NCBI RefSeq assembly: GCF_000155615.1
Contig: NZ_DS989915.1
Location: forward strand, 2,890,922 to 2,954,921
DNA from: Alcanivorax sp. DG881
GTDB lineage: Bacteria; Pseudomonadota; Gammaproteobacteria; Pseudomonadales; Alcanivoracaceae
Direction: 5' to 3'
Length of the DNA stretch: 64,000 nucleotides
Under the pieces are notes generated by a model that was given only the letters and a program-made list of their open reading frames with translations, was not told the DNA's origin and made no database searches. The position numbers were made by a program, and so were the translations under genes. This document shows positions 25,439-62,051 of the stretch, piece after piece (the first letter of the stretch is position 1; the number at the start of each line of letters is the position of its first letter).

Positions 25439-25540
25439 AAGTATGTGCTCAGCCAATAGTATGAAATTTGATCGCCTTCGTTGCCGCTGAAAGCTTGCCT
25501 GCGATATTGTGCATAAAAACAACAATAATCAGAGGCAATT

Positions 25541-27641
<2,101 letters not shown>

Positions 27642-46242: not shown

Positions 46243-46323
46243 GGAGACTGGCCTGATTAATGACGGCAGCTATAAATATGCATGGCTGGCCGTGACCTTA
46301 ATTGAGCATATTGGAGAAGCAAC

Positions 46324-46593
46324 ATGGCGTTAACCGTTGAACAGAAAGCTGAGATCCTGAAAGAGCATGGCCGCAAAGAGAACGACACCGGTTCCCCGGA
46401 AGTTCAGGTGGCTCTGTTGAGCGCCAACATCAATGGCCTGCAGGATCACTTCAAAGGCCACAAGAAGGATCACCACAGCCGTCGTGGTCTGATCCGCATG
46501 GTAAACCAGCGTCGTAAGCTGCTGGACTACCTGGCCAAGAAAGACCGCACCCGTTACCTCCAGCTGATCGAAAAGCTGGGTCTGCGTCGCTAA
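46324..46593 (+). CDS. rpsO: 30S ribosomal protein S15
   Basis: An 89-residue protein with the standard length and motifs: [42 protein letters not shown]. It binds 16S rRNA early in 30S assembly. GGAGAAGC precedes the ATG. Confidence 0.99.
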
Positions 46594-55103: not shown

Positions 55104-55590
55104 CGCGGTCCAGTTCTGCCAGCGGTGAAAGCGTTTGTTCGGCTACCTGACTGAGAAAGCTACCCAGTGCGGTGCCGTCGGGCAAGTGGCAGTGCGGTGC
55201 GATTTCCAGCAGTGGGTGCAGGACAAAGGCGCGGCGGCTCATCTGGGGGTGAGGTACCTGGAGGTCGGGGGTGTCGATAAGTTGATCGTCGATCAACAAA
55301 ATATCCAGGTCCAGGGTGCGTTCACCCCAGTGGCGCAGGCGTTGCCGGCCGGCGGCCAGCTCCAATGCCTGCAGGCTGTGCAGCAGGGCGTGGGGGGGCA
55401 GCGTGCTGTGTACTTCGGCGACCGCGTTGACGTAGTCGGGCTGGTCCTGGGGACCGATGGGGGCACTGCTGTACAGGCGGGAGTGGTGTTGCAGGGTCAG
55501 GCCGGGCAGGCGCTCCATGGCCAGCAGGGCGCTGGTCAGCCGTTGCACCGGCTGATCCAGATTACTGCCAAGCCCAATGAACGCCTGCAT
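55063..55590 (-). CDS. folK: 2-amino-4-hydroxy-6-hydroxymethyldihydropteridine pyrophosphokinase
   Basis: A 175-residue enzyme with GLGSNLDQP at the start and the signature RWGERTLDLDILLID (here HWGERTLDLDILL), then PHPQMSRRAFVLHPL. It makes the pterin diphosphate used by FolP. Its ATG overlaps the pcnB stop by one base (TGATG). Confidence 0.96.
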   Translation of the reverse strand: MQAFIGLGSNLDQPVQRLTSALLAMERLPGLTLQHHSRLYSSAPIGPQDQPDYVNAVAEVHSTLPPHALLHSLQALELAAGRQRLRHWGERTLDLDILLIDDQLIDTPDLQVPHPQMSRRAFVLHPLLEIAPHCHLPDGTALGSFLSQVAEQTLSPLAELDRDALIERKDPHRTD

Positions 55591-56969
55591 CAATTATCCG
55601 CGGCAGGCTTTGGCCGACGCCGGCGACGACGGCGTTTGTTGCCGCCTCCCCCCTGGTTGCCCAGTTGAGTGATCATGTCCCGGCGGCCGCTTTCGTCTTC
55701 TTCCTGATAGCGGGTCCACCAGTCGCCCAGTCCGGCCTTGATCTCTCCGCTCTGCTCACGCAGTAGCAGAAAATCGTAGGCGGCACGGAAGCGCGGGTGC
55801 TCCATCATGGCGTCCGCGCGGCGCCCGGCCCGTTTGTCCAGGCGCAGCTGCAATTCCCACATTTCACGCATCACGGTGGAGAAGCGACGGGGAATGGCGG
55901 TGTGCTTGATTTGCTGGTTGAGGGCCCGGGTGGCGGCTTTATGCAGTGCCTGGGCCGGCGGCAGACCGCTGGACAGGTAGCCACCGAAGCGTTGTTGAAT
56001 GACTGGCCACAGCAATACTGCATAGATAAAGGCCGGGGTCACCGGCTTGTCCATCAGCAGGCGGCGGTCGGTGTTGTCCATGGCAGCCAGCAGCATGGCT
56101 TCCCAGATCTCACCTTGATCGCTTTCCAGGGCTTGCTGGGTTTCCGGGAACAGAAAGCGGAACAGACCCAGTTCCTGCAACTGTTCGTAGGAGGCGCGGG
56201 CATGGCCGCTCAGGAACAGTTTGAGTACTTCATCAAACAGGCGAGCGGCGGGGACCTGCAGCAGCAGTTCCGCCATGTCGGGAATGCGACGGGCGGTGCT
56301 TTCTTCAATGTGGAAGCCCAGCTTGGCCGCGAAACGGGCGGCGCGCAGCATGCGTACCGGGTCTTCGCGGAAGCGTTGTTCCGGGTTGCCGATCAGGCGG
56401 ATCACTTCCTGATCGATATCGCCCATGCTGCCGACAAAGTCATGCAGGGTGAAGTCGGCAATATTGTAGTAGAGCGCATTGATGGTGAAGTCCCGGCGCA
56501 GGGCATCTTCCTCGATGCTGCCCCAGGTGTTGTCGCGCAGTACCAGCCCGGTTTCTTCGTGGGCGTGGTGTTTGTTCTGGTCCTGGTTGTCATCGCTGGC
56601 CTTGGCCCGGAAGGTGGAAACCTCAATGACTTCGCGGCCAAAGCGCACGTGCACGATTTGGAAGCGGCGGCCGATAATGCGGCTGCGCTTGAACAGACGG
56701 TTGACCTGCTCCGGTGTGGCGTTGGTGCTGACGTCGAAATCCTTGGGTTCTCTGCCGCAGAGGATGTCGCGCAGGCAGCCGCCCACCAGATAGGCCTCGA
56801 ACCCGCCTTTGTGCAATCCGTAGAGCACATCAAGTGCTGCTCGGGAAACTTGCTTGCGGGAGATCGGGTGTTGGTCGCGGGGAATCACACGCGGTTCTAT
56901 CGGTCCGGAAGATTTTGGGGAACCCGGAGTGAACCAGCGTGTCATATGTTCCAGAAGCTTGCAGGGCAT
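55590..56969 (-). CDS. pcnB: Poly(A) polymerase I
   Basis: A 459-residue class II nucleotidyltransferase: YLVGGCLRDILCGREPKDFDVSTNATPEQ contains the GG/DxD catalytic motif, then RRFQIVHVRFG, EEDALRRDFTINALYYN, and a C-terminal Arg/Lys-rich tail ending KRRRRRRRPKPAADN. It adds A tails that promote RNA decay by PNPase. ATG 56969 is chosen; 56945 (MTRWF) is possible. Further upstream the frame runs on through the RNA gene and is not coding. Confidence 0.95.
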   Translation of the reverse strand: MPCKLLEHMTRWFTPGSPKSSGPIEPRVIPRDQHPISRKQVSRAALDVLYGLHKGGFEAYLVGGCLRDILCGREPKDFDVSTNATPEQVNRLFKRSRIIGRRFQIVHVRFGREVIEVSTFRAKASDDNQDQNKHHAHEETGLVLRDNTWGSIEEDALRRDFTINALYYNIADFTLHDFVGSMGDIDQEVIRLIGNPEQRFREDPVRMLRAARFAAKLGFHIEESTARRIPDMAELLLQVPAARLFDEVLKLFLSGHARASYEQLQELGLFRFLFPETQQALESDQGEIWEAMLLAAMDNTDRRLLMDKPVTPAFIYAVLLWPVIQQRFGGYLSSGLPPAQALHKAATRALNQQIKHTAIPRRFSTVMREMWELQLRLDKRAGRRADAMMEHPRFRAAYDFLLLREQSGEIKAGLGDWWTRYQEEDESGRRDMITQLGNQGGGGNKRRRRRRRPKPAADN

Positions 56970-57095
56970 GCGAAAAATTCGGCCTCGAAATGAGCAATAA
57001 GGCGGCGATAGTAGCACTTTTTTTCGCCAGTTGAGATGTCTTTGGCCCGGAAGGGCCGACACGGGCCGACGCAATGGGATAAACTGCCTGGCCAG

Positions 57096-57131
57096 AAAGT
57101 AAAAAGGAGCCACAACCGAAGTTGTGACTCC
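57096..57131 (-). terminator. Terminator of the CrcZ-like RNA / cbrB transcript
   Basis: On the minus strand GGAGTCACAAC, TTCG, GTTGTGGCTCC, then TTTTTACTTT. The stable UUCG tetraloop and T run make a strong terminator. Confidence 0.92.
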
Positions 57132-57340
57132 CACATTTTGCGCTGATTCTGTTGTTATTATTGTTTGTGTTGTTTTCTGCCTTGTCGCTGCAATCATCAG
57201 TTGCAGCAGCACTGCATTGGCTCGTGAAATTATTGTTCTTCTTTCTTGTTGTTATTGTTTGAGCCGTTACGCCGCTGTTTTTGTTGTTTGCTGGCGTGGG
57301 ATTCATAGTGCCCGTCCACCCCCGCCAATGCAACACGCCT
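57097..57340 (-). ncRNA. CrcZ-like small RNA candidate (Hfq/Crc-titrating)
   Basis: The minus strand between cbrB and pcnB has no gene but carries three A-rich clusters (57276-57290, 57229-57260, 57149-57177) with many AANAANAA words such as AACAACAA, AACAATAA and AATAACAA. A GCTGCAA/TTGCAGC hairpin separates clusters two and three, and the strong terminator closes it. In Pseudomonas the RNA CrcZ lies at exactly this place, has repeated AANAANAA motifs, and titrates Hfq/Crc to relieve catabolite repression under CbrAB control. The 5' end is a guess: TTCACA (57381-57376) and a T/A-rich block (57357-57349) could be a weak sigma-70 promoter. No good sigma-54 site is seen just upstream of the RNA. 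Confidence 0.75.
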
Positions 57341-57408
57341 AATTTCCCTTTTAAATCATGTTGTTGCGAAGGTTTTGTGAAAACAGCCTTAGAATCTGCC
57401 TGATGGGG

Positions 57409-57446
57409 GTAACGCTTGTGTTACTTTCCTGTGTAGAGCGGTAACA
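57409..57446. promoter_or_regulatory. Candidate CbrB binding sites (GTAAC/GTTAC)
   Basis: GTAAC at 57409, GTTAC at 57420 and GTAACA at 57441 lie in alternating orientation, 70-100 bases upstream of the proposed RNA start. Pseudomonas CbrB is reported to bind TGTTAC/GTAACA pairs; here TGTTAC and GTAACA halves are 16 bases apart. Confidence 0.5.
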
Positions 57447-57577: not shown

Positions 57578-58906
57578 TCAGCGGCGTGAGCTGGCCTTTT
57601 TACGGGGGATGCCCAGCCGCTGACGCCGCTCCCACAGGCTTTTCCGGCTGATTCCCAGTTTCTGGGCCAGCTCGGTCTCGGTCATGCTGTCCTGGTTTTC
57701 CATCACGAAGCGGGTGAAATAATCTTCCAGTGACAGATCTTCGCTGGGATCCAGGCTGGCCCGGCTGACGCGCTGAGGGGTGCGGTTGGGGTTCAGACCC
57801 AGCTGAGCCGGGCCAATGCCGTCTTCTTCGGTGAGAATAATTGCCCGTTCAATCACGTTATCCAGTTCGCGCACGTTGCCGGGCCAGCTATAGCTGTGCA
57901 TGGCCTGCAGGGCTTCCGGGGTGAAGTGCAGGTCCGGGCGGTTGAGCTTTTCGCAGCCCCGGGCCAGCAGGGCATTGGCCAGGGGTTCCAGGTCTTCCTG
58001 CCGGCTGTTGAGCGGGGGCAGGGTCAGTTCCATCACGTTAAGCCGGTAGTAGAGATCCTGCCGGAAGCTGCCATCGGCGACCCGGCCGGGCAGATCCAGC
58101 TGGCTGCTGGCAAGAATGCGCACGTCCACCCGGCGGGGCGAGAGGGAGCCCTGACGGTGGATTTCGTGATGGGTGAGCAGGGTCAGCAGGCGGCTTTGTA
58201 CTTCGCTGGCCAGTTCGCCCACTTCATCCAGAAACAGGGTGCCGCCGTCGGCTTCTTCAATGCGGCCGGGCTGGTCGTCATCGCCGAACAGTTCGGTGAG
58301 TTGCAGGGCCTTGGGGAGCGCCGCGCATTGTACCGAGACCAGCGGACCGTTGGTGCGCTCGCTGTGTTCATGCAGGGCGCGGGCGGTGAGCTCCTTGCCG
58401 GTGCCGGCTTCGCCCATGATCAACACCGGGGTGTTGGTTGGTCCCACCCGGCTGATGCGGTGTTTCAGCTCTTCCATGGCCTCGCTGTTACCGATCATGT
58501 TGCGAACCGGGAAGCTGCGTTCCAGGTCCCGGCGCAGGGCCCGATTGCCGCGGTTCAGGCGGCCTTCTTTCAATACCCGGTCCACGGAGAGCAACATTTC
58601 GTCGTGGTCGAAGGGTTTGGGGATGTAGTCCACGGCGCCCAGGCGCATGGCGTCCACGGCGGAGCGCAGGCTGGCATAGCTGGTCATGATCAGCACCGGT
58701 GTATTGCCGGCGGTGGCGATGAGGCTGGTGCCGGGGTCGCCGGGCAGGCGCAGGTCGCTGATGATCAGGTCGAACTGATTGAGGCTGTATTCGCGGGCCT
58801 GTTCCACGGATTCCGCTTCTTCAACCGAGTGTTCGTGGCGCACCAGCAGTTTGCGCAGGGCGCCGCGAATAACCGGCTCATCTTCAACAATCAGAATGTG
58901 ACTCAT
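57578..58906 (-). CDS. cbrB: NtrC-family response regulator CbrB, lacking the GAFTGA loop
   Basis: A 442-residue protein: receiver domain with phospho-acceptor Asp51 (ISDLRLP), AAA+ domain with Walker A GEAGTGKE (165-172) and Walker B GGTLFLDE (221-228), and a Fis-type helix-turn-helix ending TETELAQKLGISRKSLWERR, nearly identical to Pseudomonas CbrB. Between ELFG (205-208) and GRIEEADGG (214) there are only five residues, DDDQP; the usual stretch with GAFTGA that touches sigma-54 is absent. The reading frame is intact, so this is not a sequencing slip of one base. It may act with sigma-70. It lies 36 bases after cbrA. Confidence 0.95.
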   Translation of the reverse strand: MSHILIVEDEPVIRGALRKLLVRHEHSVEEAESVEQAREYSLNQFDLIISDLRLPGDPGTSLIATAGNTPVLIMTSYASLRSAVDAMRLGAVDYIPKPFDHDEMLLSVDRVLKEGRLNRGNRALRRDLERSFPVRNMIGNSEAMEELKHRISRVGPTNTPVLIMGEAGTGKELTARALHEHSERTNGPLVSVQCAALPKALQLTELFGDDDQPGRIEEADGGTLFLDEVGELASEVQSRLLTLLTHHEIHRQGSLSPRRVDVRILASSQLDLPGRVADGSFRQDLYYRLNVMELTLPPLNSRQEDLEPLANALLARGCEKLNRPDLHFTPEALQAMHSYSWPGNVRELDNVIERAIILTEEDGIGPAQLGLNPNRTPQRVSRASLDPSEDLSLEDYFTRFVMENQDSMTETELAQKLGISRKSLWERRQRLGIPRKKASSRR

Positions 58907-58942: not shown

Positions 58943-61885
58943 TTACACACCGGAGGTGGGGGCGTGCATGGGAAGCCGAATAATAAACCGGGTGCCGCCC
59001 TGGTCGGTGATCGGGCTTTCTACCCGAATCGCGCCCAGGTGTTCTTCGATAATACTGTAAACCAGCGCTAACCCAAGGCCTGTTCCTCGTCCCGGTGGTT
59101 TACTGGTGACAAAGGGTTCGAACAGGGCGTCGCGCAGTTCATCCGGAATGCCATGGCCCTGGTCCTCCACAATCACATCCAGTACCTCGTCGGCGGATTC
59201 GCAGCGAACCGTAACCGGCTGTTTATCGGCACTGGCGTCGGCGGCATTGCCCAACAGGTTGATGAAGACCTGCAGCAGGCGCTGCGGGTCGCCCTGCACC
59301 CAGTGTTCGGGTTCACACTGGTTGGTGAAGGGTTGCTGGCGATGGTCCGGGTCGAGCAACAACAGGGAAATGGCTTCGTCCACGGTGTCGCGGATATTCA
59401 CGGGCACATGCTGGCTATGCTTGATGCCGCCGGAATGGCTGAAGGTCACCAGTGATTCCACGATACGGGTGATGCGGCGGGTCTGTTCAAGGATTTGCTG
59501 GCTGGATTCCAGCTGTTCCTCGGCATCGGTTTCGCTGTCCAGGTTTTGTGCCAGGCAGGCGATGGCGGTCACCGGGTTGCCGATCTCGTGGGCCACCCCG
59601 GCGGCCAGCCGGCCGATGGAGGCAAGGCGTTCGTTGTGCGCCAGGTGGGCTTCCATGTGACGCAGCTCGGTAATGTCTTCGATGACCACTACCTGCCCGC
59701 CAGCCTGTTCCGAGGTGCCAGTGCCCAGTACTTCGGATTTATGCAGGCTGAGCCAGCGGGTCTGCCGGTCGACTTCCAGCGATTGTTGCGGTTGATGCGG
59801 GCTGTCGTCGTGGCTGAACTGCGTCAGGAATTCCCCCCAGGGCGGGTCCAGGTCTGCCAGCCGGGAGCCAATGGTGTCGGCGGCGGTAATGCCGGTGAGT
59901 TCTTCCATGGCCCGGTTCCAGCCAATAATTTCCCGGTCCGCACCCAGGGAAATGACCCCCATGGGTAGCTCCAGCAGGGTCTGGCGGTGGAAGCGTCGCA
60001 GGCCATCCAGCTCTGCGGCCAACCCGGAGAGGCGGTCCCGGTATTGCTCCAGTCGGGACTCGATAAACTGGATATCTTCGCTGGAGCTCTGCTCTTCTTC
60101 GGGCAGGTAAGGCAGATGGTCGTCCATCAACTGGTGCGAGACCGACGGGCCGAGCAGGCCCGACAGGTTGGTTTCCAGTTGGTCGCGCAAACGCCGCAGG
60201 GCGTAGGGCCGGGTTTCGGTGCGTGGCAGGCGCAAGTCGCGCAGCGCCATTTCCACTTCGCGGGTGGCGGTGATGGGGCCAAGCGGCTGGGTCAGTGCAT
60301 CAATGAAATCGTCTACGCTTTTGGCTTCCAGTTCCCAGCGGTAAGGGCGGCGCAAGCTGTCCACCGCACAGGCTTCCGCGGCGTTCTGTTCGGCCCGGGA
60401 CATGGGGGTAACGATGGAAACGATGGCGTAGATCAGGGTGTTGGCCGTGACCGAGGCAATGGCCACGTGGTGCCATTGGCTGGCGCCGGTCTGGAAACGC
60501 ATGCCCATCAATTCCATCAAGCCCTGGAATTGCCATTGTGGGTAGGTGATCGGCAGCAGCAGTAGCAGTAACCACAACAGGAAACCCACAACGAGACCAG
60601 CGAACAGGCCGTTGCGGTTGCCGGAGGGCCAGAACAGGGCGCCGATCAGGCCGGGAACAAATTGCAGTGTGGCCACGAACGAGAGTACACCCAGCTCTAC
60701 CAGGGTGTGCTCGGTGCCGGTGAAACGGTAGAACAGATAGGCCAGAGCGAGGATCGCGGCGATCAGAATGCGCCGGGTCCAGAGCAAATTACGGTACAGG
60801 TTCTGGCCCTGATGCAGTGGGCTGGCTGGCAGGACCAGGTGGTTCAGGCACATGCCAGACAGAGCCAGGGTGGCCACAATCAGCATGCCGCTGGCGCCGG
60901 CCAGGCCGGCGATATAACCGAGGATGGCGCCGTGCCCACCGGTGACCATGCCTATGCCCAGTGCATAGTAGTCCGGCGAGGTGGGGGCGTTGCTGGCCGC
61001 CGCCGCCCACAGGATGACCGGCACGCACAGGGCCATGACCAGGAACATCAGCGGCAACGCCCAGCTGGCAGTGATCAGGGCGCGGGGGTTCAGGTTTTCG
61101 GTGAACGCCATGTAGAACATGTGTGGCAGCACCACGGCGGATACGAAAAACGCCATGATCATGGAATGCCAGGTGCCATCCTGCAGGGGGTAGTACAGCC
61201 GTGACAGCATTTCCGGGTGCTCGTCGAGCCAGTTACCCAGGCTTTGCGGGCCATCAAAAACGCCATACAGGCCCAGCAGGGCCACCGCGCCAAAGGCCAG
61301 CAGTTTGATCAATGACTCCATGGCGATGGCCACCACCAACCCTTCGTGTTTTTCCCGGGCGGTGGCGTGGCGGGCGCCGAACAGGATGGCGAAGATCACC
61401 ATCATCAGGCAGAAACCGGCGGCCAGGTCGCGGGGGTCGGAGGTGCCGCTGAGGATCTGGATGGACTCCGCCACCGCTTTCAATTGCAGCGCCAGCAGTG
61501 GCAGTACCCCGATGAGCATGATGATGGTGGTCATGGCCCCGGCCAGGCGGCTGCGATAGCGAAACGCAAACAGATCGGCCAGCGAACTTAACTGGTAGGT
61601 AGCGGTGAGCCGCAGTATCGGGGCAAGCAGAATCGGTGCCAGCAGAAAGACGCCGGAGATACCGAGAAAATAGGACAGGAAGTTATAGCCGTACTGGTAG
61701 GCGTATCCCACCGAGCCATACACCGCCCAGGCGCTGGCATAGACGCCCAGGGAAAAAACATACACGGCAGGATGGCGTACCCAGCGTGCGGGCAGCCAGC
61801 CACGCTCGGTGATCCAGGCCACCATGAACAGAAAAAACAGGTAGCCACAGGCAATCAGGATGAGGTCGCTGACACTATAGACCAT
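58943..61885 (-). CDS. cbrA: Sensor histidine kinase CbrA with sodium:solute symporter domain
   Basis: A 980-residue hybrid. The first ~490 residues are an SLC5/SSS transporter-like domain with about thirteen helices; then a coiled linker, a PAS domain (about 615-720), the histidine phosphorylation site in AAGVAHEIGNPVTAI, and the ATPase boxes NLLGNAADAS, VEDQGHGIP and GRGTGLGLALV. In Pseudomonas CbrA (histidine uptake linked) signals carbon/nitrogen balance to CbrB. ATG 61885 has AGGA six bases upstream; 61891 is an alternative. The start overlaps cbrX. Confidence 0.95.
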   Translation of the reverse strand: MVYSVSDLILIACGYLFFLFMVAWITERGWLPARWVRHPAVYVFSLGVYASAWAVYGSVGYAYQYGYNFLSYFLGISGVFLLAPILLAPILRLTATYQLSSLADLFAFRYRSRLAGAMTTIIMLIGVLPLLALQLKAVAESIQILSGTSDPRDLAAGFCLMMVIFAILFGARHATAREKHEGLVVAIAMESLIKLLAFGAVALLGLYGVFDGPQSLGNWLDEHPEMLSRLYYPLQDGTWHSMIMAFFVSAVVLPHMFYMAFTENLNPRALITASWALPLMFLVMALCVPVILWAAAASNAPTSPDYYALGIGMVTGGHGAILGYIAGLAGASGMLIVATLALSGMCLNHLVLPASPLHQGQNLYRNLLWTRRILIAAILALAYLFYRFTGTEHTLVELGVLSFVATLQFVPGLIGALFWPSGNRNGLFAGLVVGFLLWLLLLLLPITYPQWQFQGLMELMGMRFQTGASQWHHVAIASVTANTLIYAIVSIVTPMSRAEQNAAEACAVDSLRRPYRWELEAKSVDDFIDALTQPLGPITATREVEMALRDLRLPRTETRPYALRRLRDQLETNLSGLLGPSVSHQLMDDHLPYLPEEEQSSSEDIQFIESRLEQYRDRLSGLAAELDGLRRFHRQTLLELPMGVISLGADREIIGWNRAMEELTGITAADTIGSRLADLDPPWGEFLTQFSHDDSPHQPQQSLEVDRQTRWLSLHKSEVLGTGTSEQAGGQVVVIEDITELRHMEAHLAHNERLASIGRLAAGVAHEIGNPVTAIACLAQNLDSETDAEEQLESSQQILEQTRRITRIVESLVTFSHSGGIKHSQHVPVNIRDTVDEAISLLLLDPDHRQQPFTNQCEPEHWVQGDPQRLLQVFINLLGNAADASADKQPVTVRCESADEVLDVIVEDQGHGIPDELRDALFEPFVTSKPPGRGTGLGLALVYSIIEEHLGAIRVESPITDQGGTRFIIRLPMHAPTSGV

Positions 61886-62051
61886 CGACATCCTTGCTCT
61901 TGGCAATCCAGTAGCTCAACGCGATCAGGCCCAGCCAGATCAGGTAGGGTCGATACCAGGCGCGGCCACCTTCGCTCCACCAGTCAATAATGGCCGGGGA
62001 CAGCAAGTAGGTGCCGAGAATAAAAATAATAAGCAGGCGATCGGTATACAT
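61875..62051 (-). CDS. cbrX: CbrX-like small membrane protein
   Basis: A 58-residue open frame from ATG 62051 to TAG 61875: MYTDRLLIIFILGTYLLSP starts it, with a first hydrophobic helix (6-20), then a WWSEGG loop and a second helix (about 37-50, YLIWLGLIALSYWI), ending KSKDVDGL. It overlaps the start of cbrA by 11 bases. A small two-helix gene, cbrX, overlapping cbrA is described in Pseudomonas, and position, size and overlap agree. It is too short for most gene callers. Confidence 0.8.
   Translation of the reverse strand: MYTDRLLIIFILGTYLLSPAIIDWWSEGGRAWYRPYLIWLGLIALSYWIAKSKDVDGL

Follow-up and report, generated by a model that had tools for sequence, protein, structure and literature searches.

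The gap between cbrB and pcnB in the DNA analysed here (the window, a stretch of 64,000 nt from an Alcanivorax-type genome) contains the gene of a small RNA, and the locus is probably that of a CrcZ-type Hfq decoy under a rewired, sigma-70-type CbrB switch that works without Crc. Read along the minus strand, the gene order is gluQ-cbrA-cbrB-[RNA]-pcnB-folK, the outermost two being genes that we take, on our own reading, to be gluQ and folK. The RNA gene is situated between cbrB and pcnB on the same strand as both, and cbrA, cbrB and pcnB occur in equal order in Pseudomonas fildesensis with 51-54% identity, so that the place of CrcZ claimed for it by the original prediction holds. That prediction had given the interval 57097-57340; the gap was right, but the coordinates shift, with a promoter-like element at 57305-57333 followed by an RNA running from about 57298 to 57101. 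The genes concerned are:

58943..61906, minus strand: cbrA, sensor kinase with PAS, HisKA and HATPase domains, 54% identical to P. fildesensis CbrA over residues 5-981
57578..58906, minus strand: cbrB, with a receiver, a sigma-54-type AAA+ domain and its lid, and no GAFTGA loop
57101..57298, minus strand: CrcZ-like small RNA of about 198 nt, its 5' end predicted 7 nt after the -10-like element
55590..56969, minus strand: pcnB (TIGR01942, 517 bits), start predicted

The RNA is conserved throughout the Alcanivorax family, where it was matched in 45 of 46 genomes and in all eight genera (8/8); the sole genome without a match is 64% complete. Each genome has one match except G013, in which two pieces lie on two contigs and overlap in the query, and these are probably one gene at contig ends. 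An alignment was made of 38 of the 43 complete RNAs, leaving out five near-copies. Its invariant positions comprise A residues of the A-rich tracts, most of a box near the 3' end and some stem positions of hairpins 1 and 2, and the third hairpin is variable.

The A-rich motif of the RNA is strongly enriched. Twelve AANAANAA words occur in 57101-57299, against a mean of 1.4 and a maximum of 10 in dinucleotide shuffles of the RNA (n=2000), none of which reached 12; elsewhere in the window, the best of 6382 sampled 199-nt segments (both strands, step 20) holds 3. The three A-rich clusters described originally are real and lie on the minus strand. The words resolve into four (A-R-N)n tracts with n of at least 4, several such tracts being the build of a CrcZ-type Hfq decoy, and 2 to 5 of them are found per RNA among 43 RNAs of the family:

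57274..57288, minus strand: A-R-N tract 1 (n=5), in the loop of hairpin 1, with several A residues invariant in the 38 aligned RNAs
57242..57259, minus strand: A-R-N tract 2 (n=6), in the loop of hairpin 2
57229..57240, minus strand: A-R-N tract 3 (n=4), in the loop of hairpin 2, with several A residues invariant in the 38 aligned RNAs
57148..57165, minus strand: A-R-N tract 4 (n=6), single-stranded and 5' of the terminator, with most A residues invariant in the 38 aligned RNAs

The RNA folds at -51.1 kcal/mol (z = -4.3), and 0 of 200 shuffles were as stable. From 5' to 3', the predicted fold consists of hairpin 1, hairpin 2, the variable third hairpin, a single-stranded A-rich tract, the box AGAAUCAGCGCA and a terminator with a UUCG loop; both the internal hairpin and the UUCG terminator that had been read from this DNA are thus present. 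The elements named below make up its framework:

57269..57297, minus strand: hairpin 1, stem ACGCC/GGCGU with an A-rich loop
57219..57265, minus strand: hairpin 2, stem GGCUC/GAGCC with an A-rich loop
57101..57132, minus strand: intrinsic terminator, GGGAGUCACAAC-UUCG-GUUGUGGCUCC-UUUUU, also found by a terminator scan

Across the 38 sequences, six pairs of the terminator show two-sided compensatory changes, and these are all the pairs of the RNA that do so; no two-sided changes were found in hairpins 1 and 2 in this alignment. In single-sequence folds of the 5' part, the stem of hairpin 1 is made of other bases in L042-L046 and is longer in L038, and it comprises 4 pairs in several other loci.

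The Rfam model of CrcZ (RF01675) matches 57079-57287 with 24 bits (E 2e-4 in a 601-base search), and the genome contains no other match at E <= 0.001. The covariance search that had been suggested for this region thus gives a match, but one far under the gathering cut-off of 95, and at gathering level Rfam reports no CrcZ in the window, leaving the RNA below the threshold of RF01675 membership. Place, build and motif make it CrcZ-like; the Rfam threshold does not. The original proposal, that a genome of the Alcanivorax type carries a CrcZ-like gene and that such genes are thus not limited to the pseudomonads, is supported. Elsewhere in the window, Rfam identifies a ribosomal S15 leader at 46262-46380 on the plus strand (44.6 bits).

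Upstream of the RNA, we found a promoter-like element and sites resembling those of CbrB:

57419..57446, strand not assigned: CbrB-type paired site TGTTAC-N16-GTAACA, the only window match with at most one mismatch (chance mean 0.02)
57409..57413, minus strand: third GTTAC half-site, upstream of the RNA
57354..57366, minus strand: IHF-like site CAACAACATGATT
57328..57333, minus strand: -35-like element TTGCAT, part of a conserved family pattern
57305..57310, minus strand: -10-like element CACTAT (CAnnAT in the family), 3/6 to consensus

The pattern TTGC[AC]N-N17-CAnnAT is present in 45 of 45 family loci, a count that shows fixed spacing rather than an independent discovery, since the pattern was drawn from the same loci. 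Both hexamers of the window agree with the consensus at 3/6 positions by our own count, and a consensus promoter scan of the window did not find the element. The region might be only a 3' UTR of cbrB or a leader of pcnB with A-rich sequence, as its position in the gap between these genes on the same strand would permit; however, it has its own terminator, a conserved promoter-like element of its own that lies 244 nt past the cbrB stop (114-378 nt in the family), and an RNA conserved while its flanks diverge, as judged by eye. On these three grounds we reject that reading as highly improbable, and we continue with an RNA that is predicted to be transcribed independently.

The upstream sites keep a fixed distance to this element. 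TGTTAC lies about 113 nt 5' of the -35-like TTGC in 40 of the 45 family loci and about 102 nt, that is, one helical turn less, in the other 5; GTAACA follows 20-24 nt after TGTTAC in the former 40 and is missing in the latter 5. The IHF-like site, 33 nt 5' of the -35, is present in loose form in 27 of 44 loci and in the strict form YAANNNNTTGATW in 9 of 44. Sections of PMC8871633 give the rule for CbrB sites as TGTTAC-N12-14-GTAACA-N15-19-GTAACA; the sites here resemble it in that TGTTAC is followed by GTAACA, but the N16 of the window falls outside N12-14, the third half-site has another orientation and spacing, and the R2 subsite departs from the usual form. Assuming the usual start positions, the predicted distance from TGTTAC to the start is about 149 nt in the Alcanivorax family (113 + 36), and it would also be about 149 nt in Pseudomonadaceae loci (about 124 + 26), with other families varying.

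The regulator encoded upstream has the receiver, the sigma-54-type AAA+ domain and the C-terminal helix-turn-helix of CbrB, and its gene adjoins cbrA, but the GAFTGA-type loop is absent. We compared the 45 family loci with 51 from elsewhere, namely 40 loci of 29 among the 42 other family labels in our sample of the order, eight further loci, and those of Gilvimarinus gilvus, P. fildesensis and Dasania sp.; the 40 were taken from the best CbrB matches listed, which leaves families with weaker matches outside the comparison. The loop is present in 0/45 family loci and in 50/51 outside. In the family it is deleted or decayed, for example to GAFEGA in L040 and GAFAAA in L044, and the helix-turn-helix is kept despite its loss (alignment A1).

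The sigma-54 promoter is absent along with the loop. Downstream of cbrB, the pattern TGGCA[CT]-N6-[TC]GC[ATC] was found in 45 of the 50 loci that have a GAFTGA-type loop, in none of the 46 that lack it and, on the reverse strand, in 1/96 loci; the pattern was set after the sites had been seen, an earlier and stricter one having found almost nothing anywhere. Five GAFTGA loci lack it: an A-rich RNA region is missing there from L097, L103 and L121, and the sites of L096 and L099 are weaker. L142, with GAFTGA but neither a sigma-54 site nor A-rich words, would be a sixth exception, and was left out of the 96-locus table since its cbrB is followed by DNA other than the crcZ-pcnB region. When loci were scored against a sigma-54 consensus fixed beforehand (maximum 14.2), 31 of the 35 from outside the family reached at least 12.6, and none of the 44 family loci exceeded 11.2. 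We considered a sigma-54 promoter for the family RNA and rejected it: the pattern occurs in 0/45 loci, even though the best scores of three of the 44 loci (L028, L029 and L031, 10.8 each) slightly exceed the 95% mark of their own shuffles. A profile scan of contigs with alignment A1 returned mostly unrelated NtrC-type regulators, one of its patterns being generic, and four of its 80 loci (L140-L143) were examined.

In a CbrB tree with 12 of the 45 family rows, a branch with support 100/99 separates the Alcanivorax family from the other rows, and L046 forms a long branch. Outside the family, both the GAFTGA loop and the sigma-54 site are absent from L098 (family f8); L132 and L133 of the same family have both. 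In f8, the A-rich RNA region is very short. Because the compared loci are related, the counts above are not independent events, and we count two cases of paired loss, the second in one genome (L098). Passages of PMC10274813 describe NtrC proteins of Rhodobacter capsulatus and Caulobacter that have no GAFTGA and act at sigma-70 promoters.

The same loss could mean that the RNA binds Hfq and CbrB no longer activates it, the gene being constitutive or the TGTTAC sites serving repression, and according to sections of PMC10274813 the GAFTGA-less NtrC of Caulobacter also represses. We regard this as unlikely, given that TGTTAC is held at a fixed phase to the promoter-like element over 8 genera and that the -35 and -10 are weak, as expected of an activated promoter. 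Activation of the RNA gene by CbrB through sigma-70 is accordingly the reading that we keep as a proposal.

CrcZ-like genes extend beyond the Alcanivorax family. Of the 293 genomes sampled from the order, 258 encode CbrB-like proteins at E <= 1e-75, a cut-off chosen against paralogues that reach about 1e-70, and cbrB is followed by a codirectional pcnB in 33 of the 40 loci that were fetched. Three or more AANAANAA words lie after cbrB in 44 of the 51 loci from outside the Alcanivorax family, and in 25 of the 29 families sampled there (3/96 loci in the reverse-strand control). The Rfam CrcZ model matches at E <= 0.01 in 12 of the 38 order loci searched, a set to which L107 and L109 do not belong, and exceeds the cut-off in three (L106, L108 and L092). 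A review and a research paper (PMC8871633, PMC6296734) regard CbrAB, together with its crcZ gene order, as confined to Pseudomonadaceae, a view contradicted by cbrB with an A-rich RNA sequence behind it in 25 of 29 other families sampled. Putative CrcZ-like genes are thus widespread in the order and not special to the genome of the window.

Some of these loci depart from the single-gene arrangement. Two or three sets of A-rich clusters lie between cbrB and pcnB in L124, L125 and L135 (f36), L131 and L136 (f43) and L143 (Dasania), several with CbrB-type sites of their own, which suggests tandem CrcZ-like genes. In L126 (f37), CbrB-type sites and the sigma-54 site are kept, and the RNA region has one AANAANAA word only.

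The genome of the window encodes one Hfq, plus RpoN. This Hfq (L050) has Phe at position 25; the distal-face experiments in sections of PMC4063720 work with Tyr25. With P. aeruginosa Crc as query, no Crc orthologue was found in the 46 family genomes, the best matches being of 24-30% identity together with two short fragments; in 20 of the 46 nothing matched even at E 0.1, a level at which the search therefore lacks sensitivity. As a positive control, 242 of 293 genomes of the order have a Crc match at E <= 1e-20, and 0 of the 14 Alcanivorax-family genomes in that sample. The check for crc in the window's genome, as advised with the original prediction, yielded one match, which we rejected because the protein is XthA. 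Three PF03372 proteins are encoded in the genome and none is Crc-like; Crc itself would pass PF03372. Crc itself lacks catalytic residues, and among the best 30 Crc-type proteins of the order sample, 28 are without at least one catalytic residue and 2 look intact. Part of PMC9788540 states the same for Alcanivorax, namely no Crc homologue. The Hfq/Crc control proposed at the outset is therefore not supported. Crc is required for full Hfq repression in P. aeruginosa according to PMC5815094, and for this reason a Crc-less version may work differently.

A near-invariant box follows the fourth tract:

57139..57150, minus strand: near-invariant box AGAAUCAGCGCA, in 42 of 43 complete RNAs, AGCAUCAGCGCA in the other

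As DNA, the box is AGAATCAGCGCA in 42 and AGCATCAGCGCA in one of the 43 complete RNAs, and it is mostly unpaired in the predicted fold. These features would suit a seed, in which case the RNA would also be a base-pairing sRNA whose A-rich tracts only recruit Hfq. The 11-mer complement of the box occurs 8 times in the window's genome, 7 of them at other places, against 0 for the reversed control, and one genomic complement is a 17-nt exact match (L230). A 15-mer complement outside the RNA locus, however, is present in only 4 of 46 genomes (two in G000, one in G001, one in G009 and two in G018), so that no conserved pairing partner is seen; a quick look at the places of box complements gave no clear target, and the box is no better conserved than the A residues of tract 4. 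Base pairing is thus improbable as the main explanation, and a decoy of Hfq is still the reading that we prefer. The exact complements of 15 to 17 bases at few other places in the four genomes (L230 and L233 among them) are above control.

As for mRNAs that Hfq may repress, a link to alkane use did not emerge: 1 of 10 fatty acid desaturase-family genes has AANAANAA at its start, in a weak test with starts picked mechanically. At 25513-25541 (plus strand) of the window, ATAAAAACAACAATAAT contains three overlapping AANAANAA words just before the start of the gene 25541-26701, the 386-aa product of which has no Pfam or NCBIfam match. On this motif, its mRNA is a candidate for repression by Hfq.

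We propose the following mechanism. The RNA would be transcribed independently and ended by its terminator, and its A-R-N tracts would bind the distal face of Hfq. Hfq bound in this way would be titrated from the translation starts of A-rich catabolic mRNAs, lifting their repression as described for CrcZ in sections of PMC4063720, and would thereby exert catabolite control. CbrA-CbrB would set transcription of the RNA via the TGTTAC/GTAACA sites. CbrB would have lost its sigma-54 contact loop, with the -24/-12 promoter replaced in place by a weak sigma-70-type -35/-10, and would now probably activate via sigma-70, as do the GAFTGA-less NtrC proteins in the passages cited (PMC10274813). Since Crc is absent, we propose that the decoy works with Hfq alone.

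In a broader view, to which we incline, CbrAB-CrcZ would be an old, order-wide Hfq-decoy module and not an invention of the Pseudomonadaceae. In the Alcanivorax family it would have become Crc-less, with its activator converted to the sigma-70 type and the core promoter of crcZ swapped in place, the upstream sites and the predicted start distance of about 149 nt being kept; the conversion would have occurred on at least one further occasion (L098). In Pseudomonas, the extent to which Hfq depends on Crc is not settled, and a lineage that keeps the decoy without Crc makes it testable whether Hfq alone suffices. Moreover, GAFTGA and the sigma-54 promoter are absent together in two cases, which offer a natural experiment in turning an enhancer-dependent switch into a sigma-70 one. 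In oil-degrading marine bacteria, the RNA is a candidate for a master regulator of the choice of carbon source. By dRNA-seq, 549 small RNAs were reported from A. dieselolei B-5, and the main text of that study never names CrcZ (0 occurrences; PMC9788540). Our literature search, covering mostly open-access literature, found CrcZ reported neither for Alcanivorax nor for Marinobacter.

Among known systems, CrcZ of Pseudomonas is the closest. In PAO1 it has six (A-R-N)n tracts with n of at least 4, and such tracts are the basis of CrcZ-Hfq binding according to sections of PMC4063720. The RNA of the window resembles it in the place between cbrB and pcnB, the CbrB-type sites upstream, several A-R-N tracts and a 3' terminator hairpin. 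In contrast, it measures about 198 nt versus 407 in PAO1, has no sigma-54 promoter, and is accompanied by a CbrB without GAFTGA and by a genome in which no Crc was found. CrcX is a further CrcZ-type copy in Pseudomonas, and the window RNA is like CrcX and CrcY in being A-rich and lying under CbrB-type sites; unlike these further copies, it occurs once per Alcanivorax-family genome. CrcY is described as such a copy in part of PMC6296734. The CbrB of the family is, like NtrC of R. capsulatus and Caulobacter, an NtrC-type regulator without GAFTGA; those proteins differ in regulon and signal, and here the loss accompanies the missing sigma-54 promoter of an Hfq-decoy-like RNA. Finally, CsrR1 and CsrR2 of A. 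dieselolei, decoys of the CsrB/RsmZ type, are unlike the window RNA in being encoded at other loci and in being proposed, in passages of PMC9788540, to titrate CsrA via GGA motifs, but they share with it the principle of a decoy.
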